A stretch of DNA of 64,000 nt, from contig CALEBT010000047.1 in assembly GCA_937942875.1 (NCBI GenBank), positions 27,134-91,133 on the forward strand. Reading direction: 5' to 3'. Source of the stretch: an uncultured Ignavibacterium sp. (GTDB lineage: Bacteria > Bacteroidota > Ignavibacteria > Ignavibacteriales > Ignavibacteriaceae). How positions within the stretch are numbered: the first letter of the stretch is position 1; each line of letters opens with the position of its first letter. Positions 2,414 to 35,027 of the stretch are shown one piece after another. Position numbers and translations under genes: made by a program. The notes beneath the pieces were generated by a model. The model ran no database searches. It saw only the letters and a program-made list of their open reading frames with translations, and had not been told where the DNA came from.

Positions 2414-2967
2414 AAAAAGTAATGCTGATAATACCATTTGTATTCACTTTTCTTTTTGTCACGGGGATATTGGTTTATTTGAATACTATTTATAACAACA
2501 TATTCCATTTCGATTTTTCTCCAAAATCAGAAAATCAGATAGACTCTGTAATGGATTCACTTTTGGTCAAAGATGCAACAAAAACCGATAATACCAAATC
2601 AGAAATTGAATTGGCTTCTAATCAAGAAAAAAAAATTGATACAATCAATATCACTAATAATTCTGATCAATTAAAGCAGTCAATTACTGATTCTAAGAAT
2701 GAGAACTCATCAAATTTTGATGAGCAAAAATCATTACCGAAAAATTTTGTTGAAAAAACAAATAAAGATTCAGCTTACACTGCTTGGTTAAAAAAGACTG
2801 TTAAATTAATTGAAAATTTATCTCCTGCTCAGGCTTCTAAACTATTGAAAAATTATTCCGATAATCAAGCGAGAGATATTATTTACACAATGAAACAGAA
2901 ACAAGCAGCTAAAATCATTTCGTACTTAGAACCAGAGTATGTACACAAATTAACAAGGTTTCAATAA
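2410..2967 (+). CDS. MotE/YlxF-like membrane protein with MgtE N-terminal-type domain
   Basis: One N-terminal membrane segment (about residues 4-25) is followed by a low-complexity Ser/Asn/Lys linker and a C-terminal helical domain. That domain has the pattern LSPAQASKLLKNY, QARDIIYTMKQKQAAKIISYL, as in the MgtE intracellular N domain. Proteins of this design lie between fliJ and fliK in many flagellar operons (YlxF in Bacillus, MotE in alphaproteobacteria, where it acts on stator/motor assembly). The exact role here is inferred. The gene is coupled to fliJ (ATGA overlap) and to fliK (TAATG). Confidence 0.75.
   Translation: MKKVMLIIPFVFTFLFVTGILVYLNTIYNNIFHFDFSPKSENQIDSVMDSLLVKDATKTDNTKSEIELASNQEKKIDTINITNNSDQLKQSITDSKNENSSNFDEQKSLPKNFVEKTNKDSAYTAWLKKTVKLIENLSPAQASKLLKNYSDNQARDIIYTMKQKQAAKIISYLEPEYVHKLTRFQ
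2838..2864 (+). promoter_or_regulatory. Candidate intragenic sigma-28 (FliA) promoter before fliK
   Basis: TAAACTAT, an 11-base spacer and TCCGATAA match 14 of 16 positions of the enterobacterial FliA consensus (TAAAGTTT-N11-GCCGATAA, G or C allowed at position 5). It lies inside the motE-like gene about 100 bases before the fliK start. FliA itself is encoded in the window. Chance is possible because it sits in coding sequence. Confidence 0.35.
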
Positions 2968-5900
2968 TGTTAATCAATACACTTTTTTTGTCAAAACCAT
3001 TGCCTGAATCTGATTATCTGAGTAAATCAGAAAGTTCAGATAAAATGTTTGGATTCCTTTTTTCAGAAATTATGAATGTCGATAAACAATCTGAAAAACT
3101 GAAATTAGTTCCGGAACATATAGGAGGAAATCTTATTGACTATAAAAGTGTTTTCATTAATTACAATTTCGAATCAAATGTTATCATATCGCCCCCAGAG
3201 AACAAAGAAACCAAAGATCCCATTATCTGTCTTTCAAAATTGTTTTTAGAAGAAAACCTTGATAATCAAAAAATAAATGAAGCTGAAAAGATAATCTATT
3301 CTCCACAGCAATTTGTAAGCAGTTTTACCCAGTTAATAAAATCCCTCGTTGAAAACAATCCATTATCTGAAAATGTAGAATTAAAACTTTTCTCAAAGAA
3401 TTTCATCTTATCTCAAAATGTAGATAATAATGTACAGAATATTGAAAAATTCCTCTCTGAAATAATTGAAAATGAATCATCTTTCTCATTGACATTAAGT
3501 GCTTCTGGTAAACAGATATTATTTGAAGTTTTTTCTCAGGTAGTTCCATCAATATTAACTAAAGAAACTTTGGATGTTCATAATACAGATTATATTGAAA
3601 CCGAAATTACTTCTTTGAAAGACAAACCGCTTAATCAAATATTATCTAATAATAACAGCCATATGAATGAGCCTTTATCAGATAGCATATTTGCATCCAC
3701 CGGAGAAAAATTAAACACTGAATCAGAGAAGGAATCTTTATTGCACAAAGATGATCAGATTATATCAGTTAAAGAGGATTCGAGCGTCTTTCGAAATAAA
3801 AAATCAATTGAAGCATTCACTTCTGAAAAAACAAATGGAAATTTAGAAATAGATTGGCAACTGAGAAGTAACTTTAATAAAGTCCATAATACAGAGATTA
3901 CTAATTCTTTATTAGAAGGAAATCAGGAAGAAAAATTAAATAATACAGACTTAAACAAGAGCCTATTTTCAGAAAACTCAGCAATAAAGAATAACGATGA
4001 AAAAAACTCATTTAATATTTTACCTTCCGTCAACAAAAATGGTCAGAGATCCACTATTGAACTAATTGATAACTCACAGAAGCAACCAAATTCATTATTA
4101 AATGTCACAACAAAGAATGAAGGTTTAATTTCAAATAATTCTTCTGAAAATCCTCAAATAAAAATTATTATTCAAAGCGATAACCAGAATCAAGTTTCAT
4201 CAAATACTAATGTTAATTCTGAAACAATATCAAAGATTTCGGCAATTCTTGAAGAAAATAAAGGACAAAAGCAGTCCGTTTTGAGTGCAAAAATAACAAC
4301 TAACTCACAGTCTCCACAGAATAAAAATAATGGCGTTAATAGTGAGCAATTCTTTCAGGATAATCTAATTTCTGACAGGCAAGTTCAAAATCTATTTAGG
4401 TCAATTTCATTAAACAAGCAGACTGTTCAAAGGGAATTATCTTCGGTTAATAGTGTAAAATCGCAAATAATCAATGAACAAAGTCCAGCATTAAATCTCA
4501 CAGATGAAAATGTTCAGATAATTACTCAAAATAATTCAGTCAAAAATTTTAATAAGGATTTGTCGGTAAAACTAAATCAATTTCCAGAAAATGAAGTGGA
4601 CTTAAATTCTGAATTAAAGGTATCAAATGGAGTTGTTTCTGAAAAATCGATCTCAGATAACTTAAAAACTATGACACCAACTAATGTTGAAAATCCTGTA
4701 CATAACACTGGTGTAAAAAAGTCTGATAATATTTTAATAAATAGAGAACAAGATTATTCGATAAATACAAATCCTTCATTTCGTGAGAATAATAAAGTAT
4801 TTACAAAAGATTTTACAGACATTAAAATCGATATTCCAGATGACGAAAGCCAAATCATTAATAACAATTCAATTAATAAAAATATTGTATTAAATACTTC
4901 ATCAAGCAGCACAGAAATTAGAAAAGAAATAGCTAATGAACCTTCGATTGGGAAAGTTACCTTTGCAGAGGGAAAGAATCCTGAATTTTTCAGTTTTAAT
5001 AAACAAGGGAAAGACATAAAAGTAGTTGATAGTAAGGAAATTAATTCTAATAACTCAATTGAAACACTTGAAAACGAAGAAGTTTCAAAAATCAACTTAG
5101 ATGTTCGAGATTCTCAGAACGACGTTAAGTCTGAACAAAAAACTAATAATGAATTAGCTTCATTAAGTAATAAATCAGAAAATCAAAAGTCAAATTCGAT
5201 TTCAGCAAACAACAATAAGCAAACTGTTTCAAACAATTCACTTGAAACATTTAATAATGAAGGAAAATCGGCAAGTAGCTTAAGTGTCAAAGAATCTCAG
5301 AAACATTCTGAATCAGAATTGAAATTAGTAAATAATAATAGCCTGAAAGCTGAAGTAAATTCCGCTGAAGAAAAGGTATCTTCCAATACTGTTCATCAAG
5401 TTCAAAATTCATTCATAAAAAAATCTAAAAATATTTCATCATCTGAACCAGTATTAGATTCACATCAAAGTAACTCTTCAGATAAATCAAATGAAAACAG
5501 AGAAATCAAACCATACAGTTTAACAAATTTACAAGAAGAAGTATCAGAAAGATCGGATGTCAATCTTAAAAAAATTCAAAAAGATTATTCTTCACCGAAT
5601 AATGTTTTTAGAGTTGTGATTGAAAAACCTGCAAAGGGTATTGTGGGAAGAAGCTCTGAATTTGTACAGGAAGAAAAGTCAAATACAGAAAATCCAAAAT
5701 TTAATTCTGAAGTTCCAAAGGAAGTTAAAATAAATGAAGAAATTGTAAGGACTTCAGATAAAGAAACTCCTCACATTGAAACTAAAACTGATTTTAATAG
5801 TCATCAGGAAGATAGCACGAAGAACACAAACCAGAACATTACAAATATGACGTATAAGGAAAGTAATTTCTCTAAACATTATGAAGAATCTTCTATTGAT

Positions 5901-6440
5901 TTTAGAAATATTATCCCTGGATTTGAAAAGAAAGTTTCACCTGCATCTTCAAGAAATATTAATGAGGTGCATATAAATTCAAACAAATTTGATTTTAACA
6001 AATTTTTTGAATCCAAATCGTTAGAAAACTTTGTCCGAATAATTAATGAAAATAATCTGAATTATCGTGCAGAATTAAACAATTTAGGTAGGAATAGTAA
6101 CTTTATCGAACTGAAACTTTATCCGGAGGAATTGGGTCGAGTTAAAATTCTGATTGATAACTCTGATAATATAGTTTCCGCCAAAATTGAAGTTCAATCG
6201 GAACAAGCTAAGAATATTATAATTTCAAATTTACCTCAGTTAAAAGAGTCTCTTAAACAAGAGGGATTGAATAGCCAGAATATTAATGTTTACCTTGGAA
6301 CCGAAGATCAGAAAGGTCAGCATAGTGCTAATCAAAAACGCCAGAACGGAAATAGCAAAGTAATGTATGATGCTGAAGAAAAATCTGAAGAAGTTAAAAT
6401 TAAAAATTTAGGTTATAACACAATAGAATATTTAGCATAG
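2967..6440 (+). CDS. fliK: Flagellar hook-length control protein FliK, giant form
   Basis: FliK is an exported ruler that sets hook length and switches the export gate to late substrates through its C-terminal domain. The Flg_hook C-terminal domain is clear near residues 1046-1112 (FIELKLYPEELGRVKILID, then ISNLPQLKESLKQEGL). The preceding thousand or so residues are Asn/Ser/Glu/Lys-rich, low-complexity and probably disordered. At 1157 residues it is two to three times the usual length (about 400-500), so either the hook is long or the ruler is folded. It overlaps motE by one base and is followed 9 bases later by flgD. Confidence 0.9.
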   Translation: MLINTLFLSKPLPESDYLSKSESSDKMFGFLFSEIMNVDKQSEKLKLVPEHIGGNLIDYKSVFINYNFESNVIISPPENKETKDPIICLSKLFLEENLDNQKINEAEKIIYSPQQFVSSFTQLIKSLVENNPLSENVELKLFSKNFILSQNVDNNVQNIEKFLSEIIENESSFSLTLSASGKQILFEVFSQVVPSILTKETLDVHNTDYIETEITSLKDKPLNQILSNNNSHMNEPLSDSIFASTGEKLNTESEKESLLHKDDQIISVKEDSSVFRNKKSIEAFTSEKTNGNLEIDWQLRSNFNKVHNTEITNSLLEGNQEEKLNNTDLNKSLFSENSAIKNNDEKNSFNILPSVNKNGQRSTIELIDNSQKQPNSLLNVTTKNEGLISNNSSENPQIKIIIQSDNQNQVSSNTNVNSETISKISAILEENKGQKQSVLSAKITTNSQSPQNKNNGVNSEQFFQDNLISDRQVQNLFRSISLNKQTVQRELSSVNSVKSQIINEQSPALNLTDENVQIITQNNSVKNFNKDLSVKLNQFPENEVDLNSELKVSNGVVSEKSISDNLKTMTPTNVENPVHNTGVKKSDNILINREQDYSINTNPSFRENNKVFTKDFTDIKIDIPDDESQIINNNSINKNIVLNTSSSSTEIRKEIANEPSIGKVTFAEGKNPEFFSFNKQGKDIKVVDSKEINSNNSIETLENEEVSKINLDVRDSQNDVKSEQKTNNELASLSNKSENQKSNSISANNNKQTVSNNSLETFNNEGKSASSLSVKESQKHSESELKLVNNNSLKAEVNSAEEKVSSNTVHQVQNSFIKKSKNISSSEPVLDSHQSNSSDKSNENREIKPYSLTNLQEEVSERSDVNLKKIQKDYSSPNNVFRVVIEKPAKGIVGRSSEFVQEEKSNTENPKFNSEVPKEVKINEEIVRTSDKETPHIETKTDFNSHQEDSTKNTNQNITNMTYKESNFSKHYEESSIDFRNIIPGFEKKVSPASSRNINEVHINSNKFDFNKFFESKSLENFVRIINENNLNYRAELNNLGRNSNFIELKLYPEELGRVKILIDNSDNIVSAKIEVQSEQAKNIIISNLPQLKESLKQEGLNSQNINVYLGTEDQKGQHSANQKRQNGNSKVMYDAEEKSEEVKIKNLGYNTIEYLA

Positions 6441-7621: not shown

Positions 7622-9256
7622 ATGCCACTATTAAATTCACTCTTTTCGGGTGTCTCTGGTCTTAGAAATCATCAATCAATGATGGATGTTATAAGCAATA
7701 ACATTTCTAACGTTAATACAATTGGTTATAAAAGTTCAAGAGTCACTTTCAGCGATACTTTCAACAGAATTATCAGATACGGTTCAAATCCAACTGAAAC
7801 TTCCGGCGGAATAAATACTTTTCAAGTTGGCTTGGGAATGAGAATAAATACTGTTGACAGAACGTGGAATCAGGGAACTTTTGAAGGTACCGGAATTACC
7901 ACAGATTTAGCTTTGCAAGGTCCTGGATTATTTATTCTTGAAAACAATGGTGAAAGATATTTCACCAGAGCTGGTGCATTTATATTTGATGCTGATGGCA
8001 GATTGGTTAATTCACAAAACGGTGCTATTGTTCAGGGTAAAGTTGCAAATAAAGAAGGAATTATTCCTCCGGGAAACTATCTTGAAGATATTCAGATTGA
8101 TTCTTATATGAGATTGCCCGCTGTAGCTACTTCAAGAATTTCCTGGGGTGGTAACCTGAATAGTGCTTCGTCATTAACTCGTTCTGAAAATTATCTGCAG
8201 ACTGGAAATATCAACTCAGCTCTTGCAGTTGGTGAATCTGTAACCGATCAAAACATTATTTATGATGAAAATGGAAATAAATATACTTTCTCAGTTAAAT
8301 ACACTAAGACTGCTGATAATACTTACGATATGGAATATCAATTAAAAGATTCTGATGGTAATACAGTCGTTGGTCCGACAACTCTACCAGTTGTATTCGA
8401 TCCCGGAACAGGTCAGCTATTAACAGTAAATGGTAATCCACCAGCAGCAATTCAAATTCAGGATGTTAGTTTAGGCATCAATTTCAATTTTGATATGACT
8501 CAGATTACTCAAAATAATTCAACTTCTACAATTGCATCAACAGTTGACTCAAACAGACAACCAACAATTATCACTGGTTCTGTTACTATATTTGATTCAT
8601 TAGGTAATGCTCATATTTTAACTTTAAAGTACACAAAAGTTGATAACAATAGCTGGAAATGGACTGCTTCAGTTCCTGATAGTGCTGGAGGTTTAAGTGG
8701 AAATACAGGAAGCATTTCCTTTAACCCGGATGGTTCTGTGAATACAATTATTCCAAATCCTCCAGTATTGACATTTACTCCAAATGGTGGTGCAAGTGCA
8801 CAAAACATAATCTTAAATTTCGGTGAAAACTTCAGTGGAATTACGCAGACTTCAGCTAATTCAGTTTTGTCTGCATTGAGTCAGGATGGTTCGGCAGCAG
8901 CAACTTTGTCCAATCTTAGTATTGATAAATATGGTTTCATTGTTGGAGTATTCAGCAATGGTCAATCAAGAAAATTAGCACAAATAATGGTTGCAACTTT
9001 CCCAAATCTTAATGGTCTGTTAAGTGTTGGAGAAAATTTATACTCATTGAGTGCAAATACCGGTGATCCTTTAATTGGTGAGCCTGGTGAATCAACAGGA
9101 ACTACTATTCAATCTGGTGCTTTGGAACAATCTAATGTCGATTTGTCGGAAGAATTCACAAGGATGATAGTATCACAACGTGGATTCCAGGCAAGCGCAA
9201 GAGTAGTTACTGTATCTGATAATTTATTGCAGGAAATCACAAACCTTGTAAGATAA
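7622..9256 (+). CDS. flgE: Flagellar hook protein FlgE with duplicated D2-type domain
   Basis: FlgE polymerises into the universal-joint hook. The N-terminus has the rod/hook signature (SGLRNHQSMMDVISNNISN, about residues 12-30). The C-terminus has the matching helical end (GALEQSNVDLSEEFTRMIVS). At 544 residues it is longer than the roughly 400-residue Salmonella protein. The surplus fits two tandem D2 (FlaE-type) units: about 203-292 (IIYDENGNKYTFSVKY) and 316-410 (VTIFDSLGNAHILTLKY). A strong AGGAGG site precedes the ATG. A terminator follows, so flgE ends this transcription unit. Confidence 0.97.
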   Translation: MPLLNSLFSGVSGLRNHQSMMDVISNNISNVNTIGYKSSRVTFSDTFNRIIRYGSNPTETSGGINTFQVGLGMRINTVDRTWNQGTFEGTGITTDLALQGPGLFILENNGERYFTRAGAFIFDADGRLVNSQNGAIVQGKVANKEGIIPPGNYLEDIQIDSYMRLPAVATSRISWGGNLNSASSLTRSENYLQTGNINSALAVGESVTDQNIIYDENGNKYTFSVKYTKTADNTYDMEYQLKDSDGNTVVGPTTLPVVFDPGTGQLLTVNGNPPAAIQIQDVSLGINFNFDMTQITQNNSTSTIASTVDSNRQPTIITGSVTIFDSLGNAHILTLKYTKVDNNSWKWTASVPDSAGGLSGNTGSISFNPDGSVNTIIPNPPVLTFTPNGGASAQNIILNFGENFSGITQTSANSVLSALSQDGSAAATLSNLSIDKYGFIVGVFSNGQSRKLAQIMVATFPNLNGLLSVGENLYSLSANTGDPLIGEPGESTGTTIQSGALEQSNVDLSEEFTRMIVSQRGFQASARVVTVSDNLLQEITNLVR

Positions 9257-25623: not shown

Positions 25624-26718
25624 ATGAAAAAAATATTTTTAACACTGGTAATTGTTTTTGGTCTTAGCAATCTCAGTTTTTCGCAAAGAATAAAAGACAT
25701 TGCTTACTTGAATAGTGAGCATACTGAACAGGTAATTGGTTATGGAATTGTAGTCGGATTAGCCGGGACAGGTGATAGTTATAGAACGCAGTTTACAATG
25801 CAATCAATCACCAGTATGTTAAAACGATTTGGTATTACTGTCCCACAAACTGATGTAAGAACAAGAAATGTTGCTGCTGTTATGGTTACTGCAAATCTGC
25901 AGCACAACTTTAAGCCAGGTTTCAAATTTGATGTAATAGTTTCTTCTTTAGGAGACGCATCAAGTTTGTTAGGTGGAACATTACTAATGACTCCACTTTC
26001 AGCAATGGATGGAGAAGTTTACGCTTTTGCTCAAGGGCCTATTTCAATAGGTGGATATGACTTTAATACCTATACGGGAAACAGAATAGCAAAAAATCAC
26101 GCATTGACTGGAAGAGTACCTTTGGGTGGTGTCCTTAAAAATGAAATTCCTCAAAATACTGTTACAAACAATCAACTTAGTTTATTCTTGAAGATGCCGG
26201 ATATAACAACATCCAATAATATTATGAAAACAATCAATACACGATTTGGTGATAATATAGCTACTGCTGTTGATGCATCTGAAATTAAGGTCAGAGTTCC
26301 CGGAGATAGGAGTAATGATGTAATTGGATTTTTGTCTGAATTGGAATCTCTGCCGGTTGAGACTGACTATGTTGCCAAAGTTATTCTTAATGAAAGAACT
26401 GGTACAATTGTCTCAGGTAATAATGTTCAGATTAAACCAGTAAGTATTACTCACGGCAGTTTGAATATAACAATAAGAAATTATCCAATTGTTTCTCAAC
26501 CGGGAGCATTCTCCAGTGGAACAACTGCAATCGTAAATAATGCTATTCCTTATGTAAGTCAGGATTCAACCAATTCTGTAGCAATTCAGGGAGCAACGAA
26601 TGTTCAGGAAGTTGCTGCAGCACTTAATTCGCTTAAAGTTTCTCCAAAAGATATAATTGCAATATTCCAGGCACTTAAAGAAGCTGGTGCTCTGGTAGCT
26701 GAACTAGTAATTATGTGA
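25624..26718 (+). CDS. flgI: P-ring protein FlgI
   Basis: FlgI forms the periplasmic ring around the rod in the peptidoglycan layer. The 364-residue protein has a signal peptide (about 1-20, ending SFSQ), then IKDIAYLNSEHTEQVIGYGI, VVGLAGTGDSYRTQFTMQSI and the C-terminal VAAALNSLKVSPKDIIAIFQ ALKEAGAL. Length and motifs are standard. Its presence with FlgH shows that the flagellum crosses a true outer membrane. Confidence 0.98.
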   Translation: MKKIFLTLVIVFGLSNLSFSQRIKDIAYLNSEHTEQVIGYGIVVGLAGTGDSYRTQFTMQSITSMLKRFGITVPQTDVRTRNVAAVMVTANLQHNFKPGFKFDVIVSSLGDASSLLGGTLLMTPLSAMDGEVYAFAQGPISIGGYDFNTYTGNRIAKNHALTGRVPLGGVLKNEIPQNTVTNNQLSLFLKMPDITTSNNIMKTINTRFGDNIATAVDASEIKVRVPGDRSNDVIGFLSELESLPVETDYVAKVILNERTGTIVSGNNVQIKPVSITHGSLNITIRNYPIVSQPGAFSSGTTAIVNNAIPYVSQDSTNSVAIQGATNVQEVAAALNSLKVSPKDIIAIFQALKEAGALVAELVIM

Positions 26719-26723
26719 TTATT

Positions 26724-27539
26724 ATGAACGGAATTGAATTAAAAATATCTAATCCTCAAAAACACTTTACTGAAGTAAGTGTTAACTCAGTTAAAACTGA
26801 AGCCGAAAAGAAAAAATTAGCTGAAGCTTCAAAACAATTTGAGAGTTTACTTACTTCTATGATGCTTAAAAGTATGAGTCAGACAACAGAAGGTATGTTC
26901 GGAAGTGAGGGTTACGGCGGGGATTCTTTTGAATCAATCTTCCAGTTTGAAATAGCAAACAAAATGGCTGAAGGCAAAGGATTGGGTATTGCAAATATGA
27001 TTTACAAAAAACTAACTGGTGAAGATTTGCCTAATGATTTGAGCTTGCGAGAGATTAGAATAAGACCAACAAGTCAAAGATTTAACTTTAAAGATCAGAT
27101 CTCTGATATGAATGCCATTGCACCGAGTAATGAATCAATTAACCGAATTAGAAGATTTGAATCAATAATTGAAGATGCTGCAAACAGATTTGGGGTTAAT
27201 AAAAATTTAATAAAATCAGTAATACTTGCTGAATCTGCGGGTAAAGAGGATGCTTTATCCTCGGCAAATGCTAAAGGACTAATGCAGATTATTGATTCAA
27301 CAGCAGAGTATTTAGGTGTCAGAAATGTTTGGAACCCTAAAGAAAATATTTTGGGTGGAACAAAATATCTCGCAGAATTACTTCAGAAATATAATGGAAA
27401 TCTTAAATTAGCATTAGCCGGTTATAATGCCGGACCTGGAAATGTAGATAAATACAATGGTATTCCTCCTTTTTCAGAAACCAGAGCTTATGTAAGCAGA
27501 GTAATTGGTTACTTAAATCACTTTGAGAGAAATTTATGA
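26724..27539 (+). CDS. flgJ: FlgJ: rod-binding domain fused to SLT-type lytic transglycosylase
   Basis: FlgJ opens peptidoglycan for the growing rod. Residues about 28-100 form the rod-binding domain (KQFESLLTSMMLKSMSQTTE, FEIANKMAEGKGLGIANMI). Residues about 145-271 form a Slt-type (GH23-like) lytic transglycosylase with the catalytic Glu in SVILAESAGKED, then ANAKGLMQIIDSTA and LALAGYNAGPGNVDKYNG. Enterobacterial FlgJ instead carries a GH73 domain. I start at the ATG at 26724; a GTG at 26715 overlaps the flgI stop and is possible. No signal peptide is seen, in line with flagellar export. Confidence 0.93.
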   Translation: MNGIELKISNPQKHFTEVSVNSVKTEAEKKKLAEASKQFESLLTSMMLKSMSQTTEGMFGSEGYGGDSFESIFQFEIANKMAEGKGLGIANMIYKKLTGEDLPNDLSLREIRIRPTSQRFNFKDQISDMNAIAPSNESINRIRRFESIIEDAANRFGVNKNLIKSVILAESAGKEDALSSANAKGLMQIIDSTAEYLGVRNVWNPKENILGGTKYLAELLQKYNGNLKLALAGYNAGPGNVDKYNGIPPFSETRAYVSRVIGYLNHFERNL

Positions 27540-27988
27540 GCTACAATAAATTAATTGATTTAATGAATGCACAAAAGAATAAGCTTACCGAGCTTCTTGA
27601 AAGTTTGAAACTTATGCAGCAGGCTATTGTAAATCAGGAATATGATAATTACCAGCAGACAATCGATATGCATCAGAAAATACTTTCTGATATCAGAAAT
27701 ATTGAAAAAGACAGAACAAAAATAGTTAAGTCTTTATTAGGTGTTAATCAGACTTACTCAAAAAGTAATCTTCCTGATTTAATTTTTAATACATTGAATA
27801 TAAAAGACAATAAGGAAAAACAGAGTTATTTAAATCTTAGAACTGAAATAGCTGAACTGATTAAAGATGTTACCAAATATAATTTTCAAAATATGTATTT
27901 AATTGAGCATTCAAGAAAATTTATTAAAGACCTTATTGTTACTCTGTATGGTTCTAAAAATCAAAGAATATTGGATAAAAAAGCATAA
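27536..27988 (+). CDS. flgN: FlgN-type export chaperone
   Basis: A 150-residue all-helical cytoplasmic protein with a coiled-coil N-terminal half (MNAQKNKLTELLESLKLMQQ). It matches the FlgN layout and lies directly before its expected clients flgK and flgL. Sequence conservation in this family is low, so the call depends largely on context. It overlaps flgJ by 4 bases and flgK by one (TAATG). Confidence 0.8.
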   Translation: MSYNKLIDLMNAQKNKLTELLESLKLMQQAIVNQEYDNYQQTIDMHQKILSDIRNIEKDRTKIVKSLLGVNQTYSKSNLPDLIFNTLNIKDNKEKQSYLNLRTEIAELIKDVTKYNFQNMYLIEHSRKFIKDLIVTLYGSKNQRILDKKA

Positions 27989-29346
27989 TGGCAATCACAA
28001 AAGTATTTGACATAGCAAATAGAAGTTTGGCAGTTTATCGCAGAGCGATGGACATCACAAGCCATAATATTGCTAATATCAATAATCCCAATTTCTCAAG
28101 GCAAAAAATAATCTTTGCTTCTGACTTTACTGATTTAAGTTCTGGAATTGTTTGGGGAAATGGTGTTAAAATCGGCGATGTTTTAAGATATCGTGATAAC
28201 TTTATTGAATCTCAATCTCGTATTATGAATGCTAAGTATAATGATAGTCGGAGACAAAGTGAATTGATTACAAATATTGAAAAATTTTTTTCCGAGCCAT
28301 CTGATTTAGGTCTGGGAAATATGATAGGTAAATTCTTTAATAGTTTCAGTGAACTTGCAGCTTCTCCTGCGTCCAATCCTTTAAGAACAAGTGTTTTGAA
28401 TGCTGCAACAAATCTATCATCTAAGATTAATACACTTAATAAGTCTCTTAATGATGTAAAAGATAATATTAAACTTGAATTTAACGATAAAGTAAAATCA
28501 ATAAATCATCTTTTAGTTCAAATTAATCAAATCAATAAGGATATTAAAAGTCAGCAAGTAAAAAAAATCTCCACAAATGACTTAATGGATCATCGTGATG
28601 GCTTACTAAAAGATTTGAGTAAATTAGTTAATATTAATGTTACTACTGCTTCAGACAATACAGTCAGTGTATCAATTGGTGGCTCTTTTGCAGTTGATTC
28701 ATATCACATTACAGAATTTGAAATGGTAGATGATAATGGCTATTTATCAATGAAGATGAAAGGTGGAACTAATTCAGTGATTTTAACCGACGGTGAAATG
28801 AATGCTTTATCTAGTGTTTATTCATCAAAAGTTACTTCTTATCAGCAAAAACTTGATAAGATTGTCAATACCATTGTAAACGAAGTAAATAAAATTCATA
28901 AAACCGGTTATTCAAAAACAACCCCACCCCAGACTGGACTCAATTTCTTTGAAGAATATAAGGATGGAGTTTTAAGAATAAATCAGTTATTGGTTAAAGA
29001 TCCTAATCTGATTGCTATTTCTTCCGATGGCACTTTAGGTAATGGTGATTTAGCTCTTAGAATAAGTGAGATTATTGATAAAAAACTTATCGATAATTCA
29101 ACTATTATGGAATATTATACGACTTTGATTAACGAAATAGGAAATGATGGTTTATTGAATAAAAATCTCTCTGAGGCAAATCAGCTCGTCCTTGATCAAC
29201 TTGAACAACAAAAGCAAATTAGTTCCGGGGTCTCTTTAGATGAAGAAATGACTAACGTTTTACAATTTCAGAGATCTTATGAAGCATCTGCAAAGTTGAT
29301 AAAAGTGTCTGATGAGTTACTTAGAACAATATTGGAGTTAGTATGA
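27988..29346 (+). CDS. flgK: Hook-filament junction protein FlgK (HAP1)
   Basis: The 452-residue protein begins with the rod/hook signature AMDITSHNIANINNPNFSRQ. It has the FlgK middle motif DLMDHRDGLLKDLSKLVNIN and ends with SLDEEMTNVLQFQRSYEASA KLIKVSDELLRTILELV, the standard HAP1 C-terminus. It joins the hook to the filament and is exported after the FliK-FlhB switch. It overlaps flgL by 4 bases. Confidence 0.97.
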   Translation: MAITKVFDIANRSLAVYRRAMDITSHNIANINNPNFSRQKIIFASDFTDLSSGIVWGNGVKIGDVLRYRDNFIESQSRIMNAKYNDSRRQSELITNIEKFFSEPSDLGLGNMIGKFFNSFSELAASPASNPLRTSVLNAATNLSSKINTLNKSLNDVKDNIKLEFNDKVKSINHLLVQINQINKDIKSQQVKKISTNDLMDHRDGLLKDLSKLVNINVTTASDNTVSVSIGGSFAVDSYHITEFEMVDDNGYLSMKMKGGTNSVILTDGEMNALSSVYSSKVTSYQQKLDKIVNTIVNEVNKIHKTGYSKTTPPQTGLNFFEEYKDGVLRINQLLVKDPNLIAISSDGTLGNGDLALRISEIIDKKLIDNSTIMEYYTTLINEIGNDGLLNKNLSEANQLVLDQLEQQKQISSGVSLDEEMTNVLQFQRSYEASAKLIKVSDELLRTILELV

Positions 29347-30593
29347 CAAGAATTACAGACGCCGCAATGTCAAACCATTATTTAAACAGTATTAACAGAT
29401 TAAAAAGCTCAATAAGTCTTTTGCAAAGACAAATTGCAAGTGGCAATACAGTGGAAAAACCATCTGATTCTCCAAGCAAATCTGTTATTTTAATAAGGAA
29501 TAATGATATTTTGAATCAGATTAATTCCAATCTTAACAATATTAAAACTGGTTTGTCATTTCTCAATCAGACAATATTTTCTTTGGAAGTAATTCAGTCA
29601 GAAATGTTGAATTTAATTGGTAAACTAACAGATATTGAAGATCCATTAAAGCAAAAAAATCTAAATAATTATGCAGACCAGATAGAGCAGTCTCTAAAAA
29701 TAATTATGGATGTTGCAAATGCTAAGGCAGATGGAAAATATGTTTTTGGAGGAACTGATTTATCTGGTGATCCCTTTAAATTTTCTTCAGATAATCAGAC
29801 TATCGAGCAAAATGCAAATTCAAAAGGTAGAATAAATGCAAAAGTATCAAGTGGAGTTACTCAGAAAATTAATCTGACTGGTGTGGAAGTTTTCGGTACT
29901 ATTTTAAATGGTAATGGTTCATTGGACAAAAATGCTGCTGTTGGTTCTGTTAAGAATATTGAGCAGGCAGTTTATGATAGTTTCGGCAATCAGTATAAAT
30001 TTCAAATGCAATTCGAAAAAGCTGATCAACAGAAATATGAGTTTACTTATACCTTATTAGATTCAGATAATAATATAATTCATTCATCTACAGAACCGCA
30101 GGTTTTGGAATTCGATCCAATTACCGGATATCTCATTTCAGTTGATGGTAAAGCACCTTCTGAAACAAATATTTCTGTACCTGACAAAAGGATTAATTTC
30201 TTCGTTGATTTTCAGAATATGATTGAAAGCAATTCAGATTCAGTTTATTTCGACCTCAATCAACAGACAGATATCTTTAATTTATTGAAAAACATTAGTC
30301 GGAATTTAAGAAATGGCATTTTGCCCACTGCAGAACAAAAAGCCCAAGTTGAAAAATTTAATTTAAGAGTTCTGGATAAGTTAGCTGAAATCGGTAATAT
30401 CATAAATCAGTTTAACTCTTTTGAAAATATGCTGAATCAGCAATCAATGGATTTACATACCATAAATCAGGAAGTTGATGGAGTAGATATTGTTAAATCT
30501 ATAATTGATTTACAGAATAAGGATTATCTGCTTCAGATTACTCAGAAAATTGCTGCATCAATTCTTCCGAAATCATTATTGGATTACTTATGA
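29343..30593 (+). CDS. flgL: Hook-filament junction protein FlgL (HAP3) with a hook D2-like insertion
   Basis: Flagellin-like ends identify FlgL: N-terminal LKSSISLLQRQIASGNTVEK PSDSP, ADGKYVFGGTDLSGDPF, and a C-terminal coiled coil ending IDLQNKDYLLQITQKIAASI. The family is usually near 300 residues; this has 416. The extra block, about residues 195-292 (bases 29925-30218), resembles the first D2 domain of FlgE in this window: YDSFGN...YKF against YDENGN...YTF, LLDSDNN against LKDSDGN, LEFDPITGYLISVDG against VVFDPGTGQLLTVNG, RINFFVDF against GINFNFDM. It overlaps motA by 4 bases. Confidence 0.93.
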   Translation: MTRITDAAMSNHYLNSINRLKSSISLLQRQIASGNTVEKPSDSPSKSVILIRNNDILNQINSNLNNIKTGLSFLNQTIFSLEVIQSEMLNLIGKLTDIEDPLKQKNLNNYADQIEQSLKIIMDVANAKADGKYVFGGTDLSGDPFKFSSDNQTIEQNANSKGRINAKVSSGVTQKINLTGVEVFGTILNGNGSLDKNAAVGSVKNIEQAVYDSFGNQYKFQMQFEKADQQKYEFTYTLLDSDNNIIHSSTEPQVLEFDPITGYLISVDGKAPSETNISVPDKRINFFVDFQNMIESNSDSVYFDLNQQTDIFNLLKNISRNLRNGILPTAEQKAQVEKFNLRVLDKLAEIGNIINQFNSFENMLNQQSMDLHTINQEVDGVDIVKSIIDLQNKDYLLQITQKIAASILPKSLLDYL

Positions 30594-31366
30594 TTAAAAA
30601 ATTAGGAAACATAAATGGATTTATTTTAGGAGTGATGTCGGTGTTCGGCGCATTCATTTGGGAAGGTGGTTCATTAAATGCTCTTTTCCTCGTTCCTCCA
30701 ATAATCATTGTATTCGGTGGTACATTCGCAGCAGTAATTATAGGATTTGGCTTTGAGAATTTTCTGAAAATATTTCATTTAATAAAAATTGCATACTTTC
30801 CTAAAACATATAACCATCAGGAAATAATAGACACTCTTGTGAAATTATCCTTCAAGGCTCGAAAAGAAGGTTTATTGTCAATCGAAAGTGAGATAAATAA
30901 TATCGATTTTTTCTTTTGTAAAAAGCTGTTAAGAAATGCAATTGATGGAACTGACCCCGAGATGTTAATGGATTTGGCAGAAGTCGAAATGAAAGCAATA
31001 CAGGACAGGCATAATCAAAATATTTTTATCTTTACAAAAATGGGAGGTTATGCACCAACGATGGGTATTTTAGGCACCGTTATGGGCTTGATTATGGCTC
31101 TGTCTCAGGCAGGAAGTGAACCAACAGTGCTTATTAAAAGTATTGCAACTGCTTTTATAGCAACTCTTTGGGGTGTTTTTTCAGCTAATTTAATTTGGTT
31201 ACCAATAGCGGATAGATTAAGAAAATGTCATCAGGACGAGAAACAACTGATGTTGTTGTCTCTTCAGGGAGTGATAGCAATTCAAAGTGGAGATATTCCG
31301 ATTCTGGTGAAATCTCGTTTGATAAGCATGTTACCCCAAAGAGAACAAGAACTAGTTTACAGTTAG
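30590..31366 (+). CDS. motA: Flagellar stator protein MotA (first set)
   Basis: MotA is the torque-generating stator subunit. The 258-residue protein is of the short MotA/PomA/Bacillus type. It has four membrane segments; the last two hold GGYAPTMGILGTVMGLIMAL and a cytoplasmic loop precedes them. The closing part (LSLQGVIAIQSGDIPILVKS RLISMLP) is conserved in the family, so its stop at 31366 is real even though motB appears to start 142 bases earlier. It is coupled to flgL by an ATGA overlap. Confidence 0.95.
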   Translation: MIKKLGNINGFILGVMSVFGAFIWEGGSLNALFLVPPIIIVFGGTFAAVIIGFGFENFLKIFHLIKIAYFPKTYNHQEIIDTLVKLSFKARKEGLLSIESEINNIDFFFCKKLLRNAIDGTDPEMLMDLAEVEMKAIQDRHNQNIFIFTKMGGYAPTMGILGTVMGLIMALSQAGSEPTVLIKSIATAFIATLWGVFSANLIWLPIADRLRKCHQDEKQLMLLSLQGVIAIQSGDIPILVKSRLISMLPQREQELVYS

Positions 31367-32040
31367 AAGATTCAGAAGATAATCCTTTTCAGGAATCATC
31401 TGAAAAGGATAGATATTTGATAACCTATGCAGATTTAATTACTCTGTTATTGGGATTGTTTATACTTTTGTACACTGCATCAAATCTTGATATTCAGAAA
31501 TACGAAAAAATGTTGGGTGCTTTTGGTGATGTTTTTGGCGGTCAGACACCTAAATTGAAAATTCAGGATTTGCCGGAACCGATGATTATTACCCCTATTG
31601 ACAGATTGAAGATTGAAATGAATCAATTAATTTCGGATAGTGAATTTTCGAATTCAATCAGAATGGAAGAAAACGAGAGAGGAATTGTTATTCACATTTT
31701 GGAAAATATTGTTTTTACTCCCGGTTCCGCCGAATTAAAAAGTACTTCTAAAATTGTTCTTAATAGAATAGCTGATATAATAAAGAAATTGCCGAATGAT
31801 ATCAGGGTTGAAGGGCATACAGATAATATTCCAATAAGTTCAGCTTTATATCCTTCTAACTGGCATCTTTCAGTTGCAAGAGCTTTAAGCACTGCTTATT
31901 ATTTAATTAATGTTGAGGGTGTTCCACCGGATAGAGTTTCAATAGTTGGAAATGCAGAGTATAAGCCAATTGAATCTAATGAAACTGCTTATGGAAGGGC
32001 ACTTAATAGAAGAGTTGACATTGTAATTATCAAAAAATAA
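31225..32040 (+). CDS. motB: Flagellar stator protein MotB (first set), long overlap with motA
   Basis: The 271-residue protein has one membrane segment (about residues 64-86) with the ion-binding Asp at about 70 (TYADLITLLLGLFILLYT). Its C-terminal OmpA-like peptidoglycan domain has IRVEGHTDNIPISS and GNAEYKPIESNETAYGRALN RRVDI. The only ATG, GTG or TTG in frame before the membrane segment is the ATG at 31225, inside motA. The first 47 residues (Ser-rich, unlike other MotB) are therefore overprinted on the motA end, unless a non-standard start nearer 31360 is used. Confidence 0.93.
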   Translation: MSSGRETTDVVVSSGSDSNSKWRYSDSGEISFDKHVTPKRTRTSLQLEDSEDNPFQESSEKDRYLITYADLITLLLGLFILLYTASNLDIQKYEKMLGAFGDVFGGQTPKLKIQDLPEPMIITPIDRLKIEMNQLISDSEFSNSIRMEENERGIVIHILENIVFTPGSAELKSTSKIVLNRIADIIKKLPNDIRVEGHTDNIPISSALYPSNWHLSVARALSTAYYLINVEGVPPDRVSIVGNAEYKPIESNETAYGRALNRRVDIVIIKK

Positions 32041-33382: not shown

Positions 33383-34258
33383 ATGTTTGTTATAATTGGA
33401 ATAGCAGTAGTAATTATAGCAGTTATCGGTGGATTTATGTTTGCAGGAGGTAATGTAATGCTTCTAATCCAGCCTGCCGAATTCATAATAATTGTTGGTG
33501 CAGCTACTGGTAGCATGCTAATATCCTCTCCTCCAAACTTGTTAAAAAAAATAGTTAGCTCGATTCCTTTATTGATCAAAGGATTCAAAATTACAAAGCA
33601 AGATTATCTGGAATTGCTGAAATCATTAAATGATCTCTTCTTACTTGCTCAAAGAGATGGATTGTTAGCTATTGAAAAGCATATAGAAAACCCTAAAGAA
33701 AGTGAAATACTATCACAGGCAAAAAACTTTGTTGATAATCATCATGTAATTACATTCTTTTCAGATACGATGAAAGTTATGTTATCAGGTGGAGTACCAC
33801 CGCACGAACTCGAAACTTTAATTGATGCAGAAATAGAAACTTTTGAAATAGAAGGTAAACCTGTTACTGCAACAATTTCAAAAGTTGGTGATGCTTTCCC
33901 TGGTTTAGGAATTGTCGCTGCTGTTTTGGGTATCATCGTGACAATGAGTTCTATTGATAAAGGACCTGAATATGTAGGATTACACGTTGCAGCAGCTCTT
34001 GTAGGTACATTCCTGGGAGTTCTTTTGTCTTATGGATTTGTTGGTCCTATGGCTACAAATCTTGAACTAATTCACGAGAGTGAGAAAAGATATTTAGAAA
34101 CTATAAAGGCTTGTATTGTTGCTTACGCAAAAGGTAATCCACCAATTGTTTCAGTTGAATTTGCCCGAAGGACTATATTCAGTGATTACAGACCATCATT
34201 TTCTGAGCTTGAAAACTTTATAAGAGGTAAAGGAGAAATTAGCAGTGAAGGTAAGTGA
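33383..34258 (+). CDS. motA: Flagellar stator protein MotA (second set, E. coli-like long form)
   Basis: The 291-residue protein matches the longer MotA class. It has N-terminal segments, a large cytoplasmic loop (FFSDTMKVMLSGGVPPHELETL, charged EIETFEIEGKP) and the last two segments with VGDAFPGLGIVAAVLGIIVT and GLHVAAALVGTFLGVLLSYG FVGP. It differs clearly from the first MotA of the locus. It overlaps its motB partner by 14 bases. Confidence 0.95.
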   Translation: MFVIIGIAVVIIAVIGGFMFAGGNVMLLIQPAEFIIIVGAATGSMLISSPPNLLKKIVSSIPLLIKGFKITKQDYLELLKSLNDLFLLAQRDGLLAIEKHIENPKESEILSQAKNFVDNHHVITFFSDTMKVMLSGGVPPHELETLIDAEIETFEIEGKPVTATISKVGDAFPGLGIVAAVLGIIVTMSSIDKGPEYVGLHVAAALVGTFLGVLLSYGFVGPMATNLELIHESEKRYLETIKACIVAYAKGNPPIVSVEFARRTIFSDYRPSFSELENFIRGKGEISSEGK

Positions 34259-35027
34259 ACAACAAGCTCCCATAATAATTAAAAAGGGTAAGCACGGTCA
34301 CGGCCATCACGGCGGAGCTTGGAAAGTTGCTTATGCGGATTTTGTTACTGCTATGATGGCTTTGTTCATTGTTTTATGGGTTTTAGGGCAGGATCAAAAA
34401 GTTATTGAAAGTGTTGCAGGTTACTTTAAAGATCCCATAGGCTTTACTGAAAAAATTAGAGCAATTTCAGCTGGTAATGTCGAGAGTCTTCATTTTCAGG
34501 TTGATTCTGTAATTATCAAAGAGCAGCTTCGCGAATTGGAAATTCAAAGATTAGAGAATTTAGGTGAATCATTAAAAGAGGAACTCAAGCAAAATCCTGA
34601 ATTTCAGGAACTTGCCGATCAGATCAATATTGAAATCGCTAATGAGGGCTTGAGAATAGAATTAACAGAATCAATGGAAAATGTTTTTTTTGAAGTTGGA
34701 ACAGCCAACTTAAAACCTAATGCAACCAGAATTATTCAACAGATTGCCGTAAATCTTCAAAAACTTCCAAACAAAATAATTATTGAAGGACATACAGACT
34801 CAAGACAATATATTAACGGGGCAAAAGGTTATTCCAATTTTGAATTAAGCTCTGAGAGAGCAAATGCTACCAGAAGAACTTTGGTAAGTGCTGGGTTAGA
34901 GCCGAATAAAATTGATGAAGTCAGGGGATATGCTGATACGAGATTGCGTGATCCAAATGATCCATTTTCTGCTGTAAATAGAAGAACTAGTCTTATCATA
35001 AAATTTGCAACGGAAGCTCCTGAATGA
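34245..35027 (+). CDS. motB: Flagellar stator protein MotB (second set)
   Basis: The 260-residue protein has a His/Lys/Gly-rich cytoplasmic start (KKGKHGHGHHGGAWK), then the membrane segment with the proton-binding Asp at residue 32 (YADFVTAMMALFIVLWVLG, the E. coli-type sequence and number). The OmpA-like domain has IIIEGHTDSR and ERANATRRTLVSAGLEPNKI. GTG at 34245 is the start, overlapping motA by 14 bases. The ADFVTAMMALF motif suggests proton coupling. Confidence 0.95.
   Translation: MKVSEQQAPIIIKKGKHGHGHHGGAWKVAYADFVTAMMALFIVLWVLGQDQKVIESVAGYFKDPIGFTEKIRAISAGNVESLHFQVDSVIIKEQLRELEIQRLENLGESLKEELKQNPEFQELADQINIEIANEGLRIELTESMENVFFEVGTANLKPNATRIIQQIAVNLQKLPNKIIIEGHTDSRQYINGAKGYSNFELSSERANATRRTLVSAGLEPNKIDEVRGYADTRLRDPNDPFSAVNRRTSLIIKFATEAPE

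Follow-up and report, generated by a model that had tools for sequence, protein, structure and literature searches.

We found that the hook-filament junction protein FlgL encoded in the window (the whole stretch of 64,000 nucleotides of Ignavibacterium sp. DNA analysed here) carries a D2 domain of the type known from the hook protein FlgE, and it is very probable that the FlgL of this lineage captured this domain, complete, from FlgE. Sequence and predicted structure are the basis for the homology, the completeness of the domain, its site, its patchy and restricted distribution, at least two independent captures and purifying selection. The gene concerned, its upstream neighbour and the parts of the protein are:

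27988-29346, forward strand: flgK, 452 aa, with just a helical domain and the terminal regions (FlgK_D1 at 95-321, Flg_bbr_C)
29343-30593, forward strand: flgL, hook-filament junction protein, 416 aa, long form (TIGR02550, position 3′ of flgK, structure match)
29343-29900, forward strand: first part of FlgL D0/D1 (helices and beta hairpin), residues 1-186; a short-FlgL profile matches residues 3-185
29901-30260, forward strand: FlgE-type D2 insert in FlgL, residues ~187-306 (PF07559, FlgE-only profile, hhalign, fold match)
30261-30590, forward strand: D1/D0 return part of FlgL, residues 307-416; the short-FlgL profile matches residues 305-416

Outside the insert the window protein is a genuine, ordinary FlgL. 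It matches the curated FlgL model TIGR02550 over its whole length (positions 1-387; 131.3 bits, cut-off 127.2), and its gene lies directly 3′ of flgK in a flagellar operon. The model of the whole protein aligns with the solved FlgLs 5yti, 3pwx, 5zj0, 2d4x and 5ziy (Z 20-23 over ~194-218 residues at 1.9-2.6 Å); it has helices at 4-32, 44-97 and 101-125 and the four-segment helical D1 of those structures. The protein is not a whole FlgE, as Flg_bb_rod, FlgE D1 and Flg_bbr_C are all absent from its 416 aa; it is a FlgL with the D2 domain of FlgE only. Elsewhere around the operon, 26715-27539 encodes a fusion of a FlgJ-type rod-binding domain with a domain of lytic transglycosylases (SLT, PF01464), and two motA/motB pairs lie close together 3′ of flgL (30590-32040 and 33383-35027). 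The listed reading frame of the first motB shares ~142 bases with motA; the actual motB start therefore probably lies further downstream.

The putative donor family is represented in the same window:

7622-9256, forward strand: flgE, encoding the 544-aa hook protein, which has a pair of D2 units (in Pfam: Flg_bb_rod, LlgE_F_G_D1, FlgE_D2 in two stretches, Flg_bbr_C)
8189-8557, forward strand: FlgE D2a, the first D2 unit, residues 190-312, nearest kin of the FlgL insert (BLASTP, hhalign, domain trees)
8558-8926, forward strand: FlgE D2b, the second D2 unit, residues 313-435, a canonical FlgE D2 (best PF07559 stretch 320-423)

An earlier note, made from the sequence by eye, had claimed that FlgL carries a FlgE D2-like domain at 29925-30218 (residues 195-292). 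The claim is borne out by the profile and fold searches described here; that range covers the core, and the full domain is wider, as listed above. The Pfam model FlgE_D2 (PF07559) matches FlgL residues 208-304 at 27.7 bits against a cut-off of 22.7 (E 4.3e-6), and in BLASTP against the window FlgE the protein is 34% identical over 124 aa to the first D2 unit (FlgE 195-316; E 5e-15), with a further match to the second (E 6e-6). A FlgE-only profile, built from the first D2 units of 31 FlgEs, matches residues 190-299 of the window FlgL (E 7e-21) and finds every other long FlgL tested in the order to which the genome belongs (E 1e-19 to 1e-37). Short FlgLs were not matched by this profile, nor were any of the retrieved Clostridium, KSB1 and actinobacterial FlgLs; the long Clostridium FlgLs L155, L166 and L172 are unmatched by both FlgE profiles. 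FlgE_D2 itself is found at E 0.001 or better in 23 of the 32 long FlgLs. When 31 FlgL inserts were compared by hhalign, FlgE D2a scored 99.9% (E 5.9e-34, 120 columns) and FlgE D2b 97.2%, against 7.7% and 0.2% for the controls, FlgE D1 and FlgL D1. In a search of PDB sequences with the insert profile, the top five matches were all FlgE. A chance or low-complexity similarity is ruled out by the FlgE-only profiles, the controls and the fold, and an assembly chimera by the occurrence of the same FlgL arrangement in dozens of genomes.

The predicted structure agrees with the earlier note's expectation of a FlgE D2 barrel. The insert was modelled alone, from FlgL sequences only, with a mean pLDDT of 94.2. 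In a Foldseek search with this model, ranks 1-19 were all FlgE or hook entries. VIA-align matched it to 17 FlgE entries (Salmonella, Treponema, Caulobacter, Helicobacter, Campylobacter and Pseudomonas among them) with Z 10.3-13.4 and rmsd 2.1-2.4 Å over 110-120 residues; the next row, of unrelated folds, had Z 5.2. As modelled, the insert thus has the FlgE D2 barrel fold across the whole domain. The known domain (PF07559; Salmonella 1wlg, Treponema denticola 6ndt) shares its fold with the insert from end to end (Z 10-13, rmsd 2.1-2.4 Å), and the sequence homology is significant, with both domain ends present in the FlgL insert. Unlike FlgE D2, the insert sits in a flagellin-like carrier, and in one copy rather than the two of the local FlgE.

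In the model of the whole FlgL the domain is flanked by a short helix (180-184) on one side and by the helix 311-323 on the other. These flanks place it at the gap between α3a and α3b, which in Xanthomonas campestris FlgL (5zj0, 5ziz) holds that protein's own D2 (PMC6155364); the two proteins also share D1, and both have an outer beta domain at this place, segment S3. The shared site, between the two parts of helix α3 (PMC6155364), raises the question of whether the insert is simply the usual FlgL D2 of Xanthomonas type, resembling FlgE D2 merely in its general beta-sheet character. We consider this highly improbable, because searches by sequence and by fold that started from the insert give FlgE and no FlgL (although the absence of a known FlgL D2 is in itself no proof of difference), and because the part of the whole model that superposes on Xanthomonas FlgL (203 of 309 residues, 2.1 Å) is about the size of D1 alone. 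Moreover, the Xanthomonas D2 has been published as a beta sandwich like that of FlgK D2 (PMC6155364), not a FlgE barrel. Among other FlgLs, short forms without D2 (Bacillus cereus 5ziy and the short forms of Melioribacteraceae) have the same D0/D1 architecture and no insert. Campylobacter jejuni FlgL (9gsx) has a bulky D2 and, likewise, an enlarged outer part in the junction (PMC12221982), but it is much longer (~750 residues), and neither the sequence nor the fold searches with the insert brought it up.

Every FlgE read from the order has two tandem D2 units; sampled FlgEs of other Bacteroidota mostly have one. In domain trees FlgE D2b clusters with the D2 of FlgEs that have just one, and the FlgL D2s of the order form one group adjoining FlgE D2a. 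By sequence, the FlgL insert of the order is thus derived from D2a, the first unit of the tandem pair in the order's FlgE. The domain trees are unrooted, and the neighbouring positions of FlgE D2a and FlgL D2 do not by themselves give a direction; FlgL D2 could have come first and given rise to FlgE D2a. This order of events is very unlikely, since FlgE D2 is general (Pfam finds it in the controls E. coli, Caulobacter and Thermotoga), since D2a stands in tandem with D2b, and since D2a occurs in each FlgE read from the order while the domain is missing from about half of the FlgLs. The transfer from hook to junction protein proposed in the earlier note is supported by the domain trees, in which FlgL D2 adjoins FlgE D2a, and by the distribution: D2 is general in FlgE, whereas D2 of this type is restricted in FlgL. 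Tandem D2 pairs are also seen in FlgE of three further members of the class (G097, G120 and G451), where they are apparently separate. Another hook-related gene in the window (2967-6440) encodes a FliK-type hook-length control protein of 1157 aa, mostly asparagine/serine-rich before its conserved C-terminal domain; so long a protein of this type may go with a long hook.

FlgL homologues with the insert proved widespread in the order (class Ignavibacteria), as a check of its spread suggested by the earlier note revealed. Among 164 genomes 108 have a FlgL match, with ~53 full long FlgLs, in which PF07559 was located, and ~47 short ones (290-320 aa). The long form occurs in Ignavibacteriaceae, Ignavibacterium included, and Melioribacteraceae; the FlgL of one Ignavibacterium MAG (L093) is 76% identical to that of the window. 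Long and short forms are sometimes found within a single genus, and one congeneric pair, 69.5% identical outside the insert, differs by one clean block of ~115 residues between FGTI and ERDIF. When the insert was left out of the alignment for a FlgL tree, the long and short states needed at least nine changes on that tree, three of them forced by well-supported branches. The single FlgL-D2 clade within the order has moderate support (83 in a quick tree, 90/67 in a later one), so the numbers of captures and losses within the order are unsure; the simplest reading of the sequences would be one capture followed by several losses, and transfers are also possible. Sampling was centred on Bacteroidota, with other phyla barely covered. 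A contig scan found 31 long FlgLs of FlgE-D2 type among its best 80, all titled Ignavibacteria-type, Chlorobiota or Bacteroidetes, although the scan rests on a single peptide pattern and is weak evidence for absence in other groups. We found no report of a FlgE domain in FlgL in the open-access literature.

In the class as a whole (294 genomes), the long FlgLs from outside the order number three and belong to other families (G014, G451 and G525); their D2s cluster with the first-D2 FlgE units of other families. A tree with all FlgL D2s in one clade was rejected by the AU test (p 0.0022), for a constraint group named before the tested tree was built but after a quick tree had already hinted at the grouping. 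In G451 (L244, G451:C16:8500-12000), furthermore, the domain lies ~20 positions further on, after helix α3 rather than before it. A single origin of all FlgLs with FlgE D2 in the class is thus rejected by the AU test and unlikely given the second insertion site. Together these results show, by sequence, that FlgL of the class Ignavibacteria captured FlgE D2 at least twice, and perhaps three times.

The captured domain is under purifying selection. Its dN/dS is ~0.08-0.15 against ~0.04-0.08 for the rest of FlgL, ratios that are rough because many pairs are almost saturated at synonymous sites. Amino-acid changes in it are mostly 1.5-3 times faster than in the remainder of FlgL. That faster change and the patchy presence of the insert, even within one genus, would fit a barrel that merely decorates the surface (for adhesion, antigenic or phage contact) and plays no mechanical part, being retained or lost as the outer domains of flagellin are. 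We regard this as unlikely, though a serious alternative, because the insert is still clearly under purifying selection and because its source is the hook, where the packing of D2 domains follows the 6-start lines and D2-D2 contacts set the curvature (PMC6874566).

The reading that we prefer is as follows. An ancestral FlgE already had two D2 units, and very probably a copy of the first one was inserted in frame into the FlgL D1 loop between the beta hairpin and helix α3, the place where other FlgLs hold an unrelated optional D2. In other species FlgL makes up a layer of 11 subunits whose D2 is exposed (PMC12221982); by analogy, in the assembled flagellum 11 copies of the domain would project outward as a ring of barrels in the distal junction layer. 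The hook-like outer surface that the earlier note expected the insert to give the junction is a reasonable inference. The barrels may add lateral contacts between subunits that stiffen the junction, in line with the reinforcing role that has been proposed for the D2 of Xanthomonas FlgL (PMC6155364). Such stiffening may matter here because FlgK is without an outer domain of its own: Pfam recognised no D2 or D3 in the window FlgK, and the insert, supplied by FlgL, would be the only outer domain of the junction. FlgK is ~452 aa in nearly all members of the order, with long and short FlgL alike, and no tie between long FlgL and FlgK size was found. Since the genomes with short FlgL share the same short FlgK, the insert is not needed to replace a missing FlgK D2. 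We put the chance that the insert reinforces the junction, a role proposed by analogy, at about even; it would be helpful but dispensable, because many relatives are without the domain.

Axial proteins of the flagellum have been described as two groups, those of rod and hook with a beta D1 and those of junction and filament with a helical D1. A hook outer domain in a junction protein, acquired more than once and missing as a single clean block from near relatives, amounts to a natural domain-swap experiment, and shows that outer domains move between the groups. On our best reading, the known optional D2 of FlgL is here filled by a hook domain, as a lineage-specific variant. More generally, we think it probable that flagellin-like junction proteins repeatedly acquire the outer domains of rod/hook proteins (FlgL of Ignavibacteria at least two times, once at a second site), and that domain exchange between these two unrelated axial families is a working route by which the outer shell of the flagellum evolves. 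The natural pairs of long and short FlgL within Melioribacter offer a handle on the role of the outer domain in the junction.
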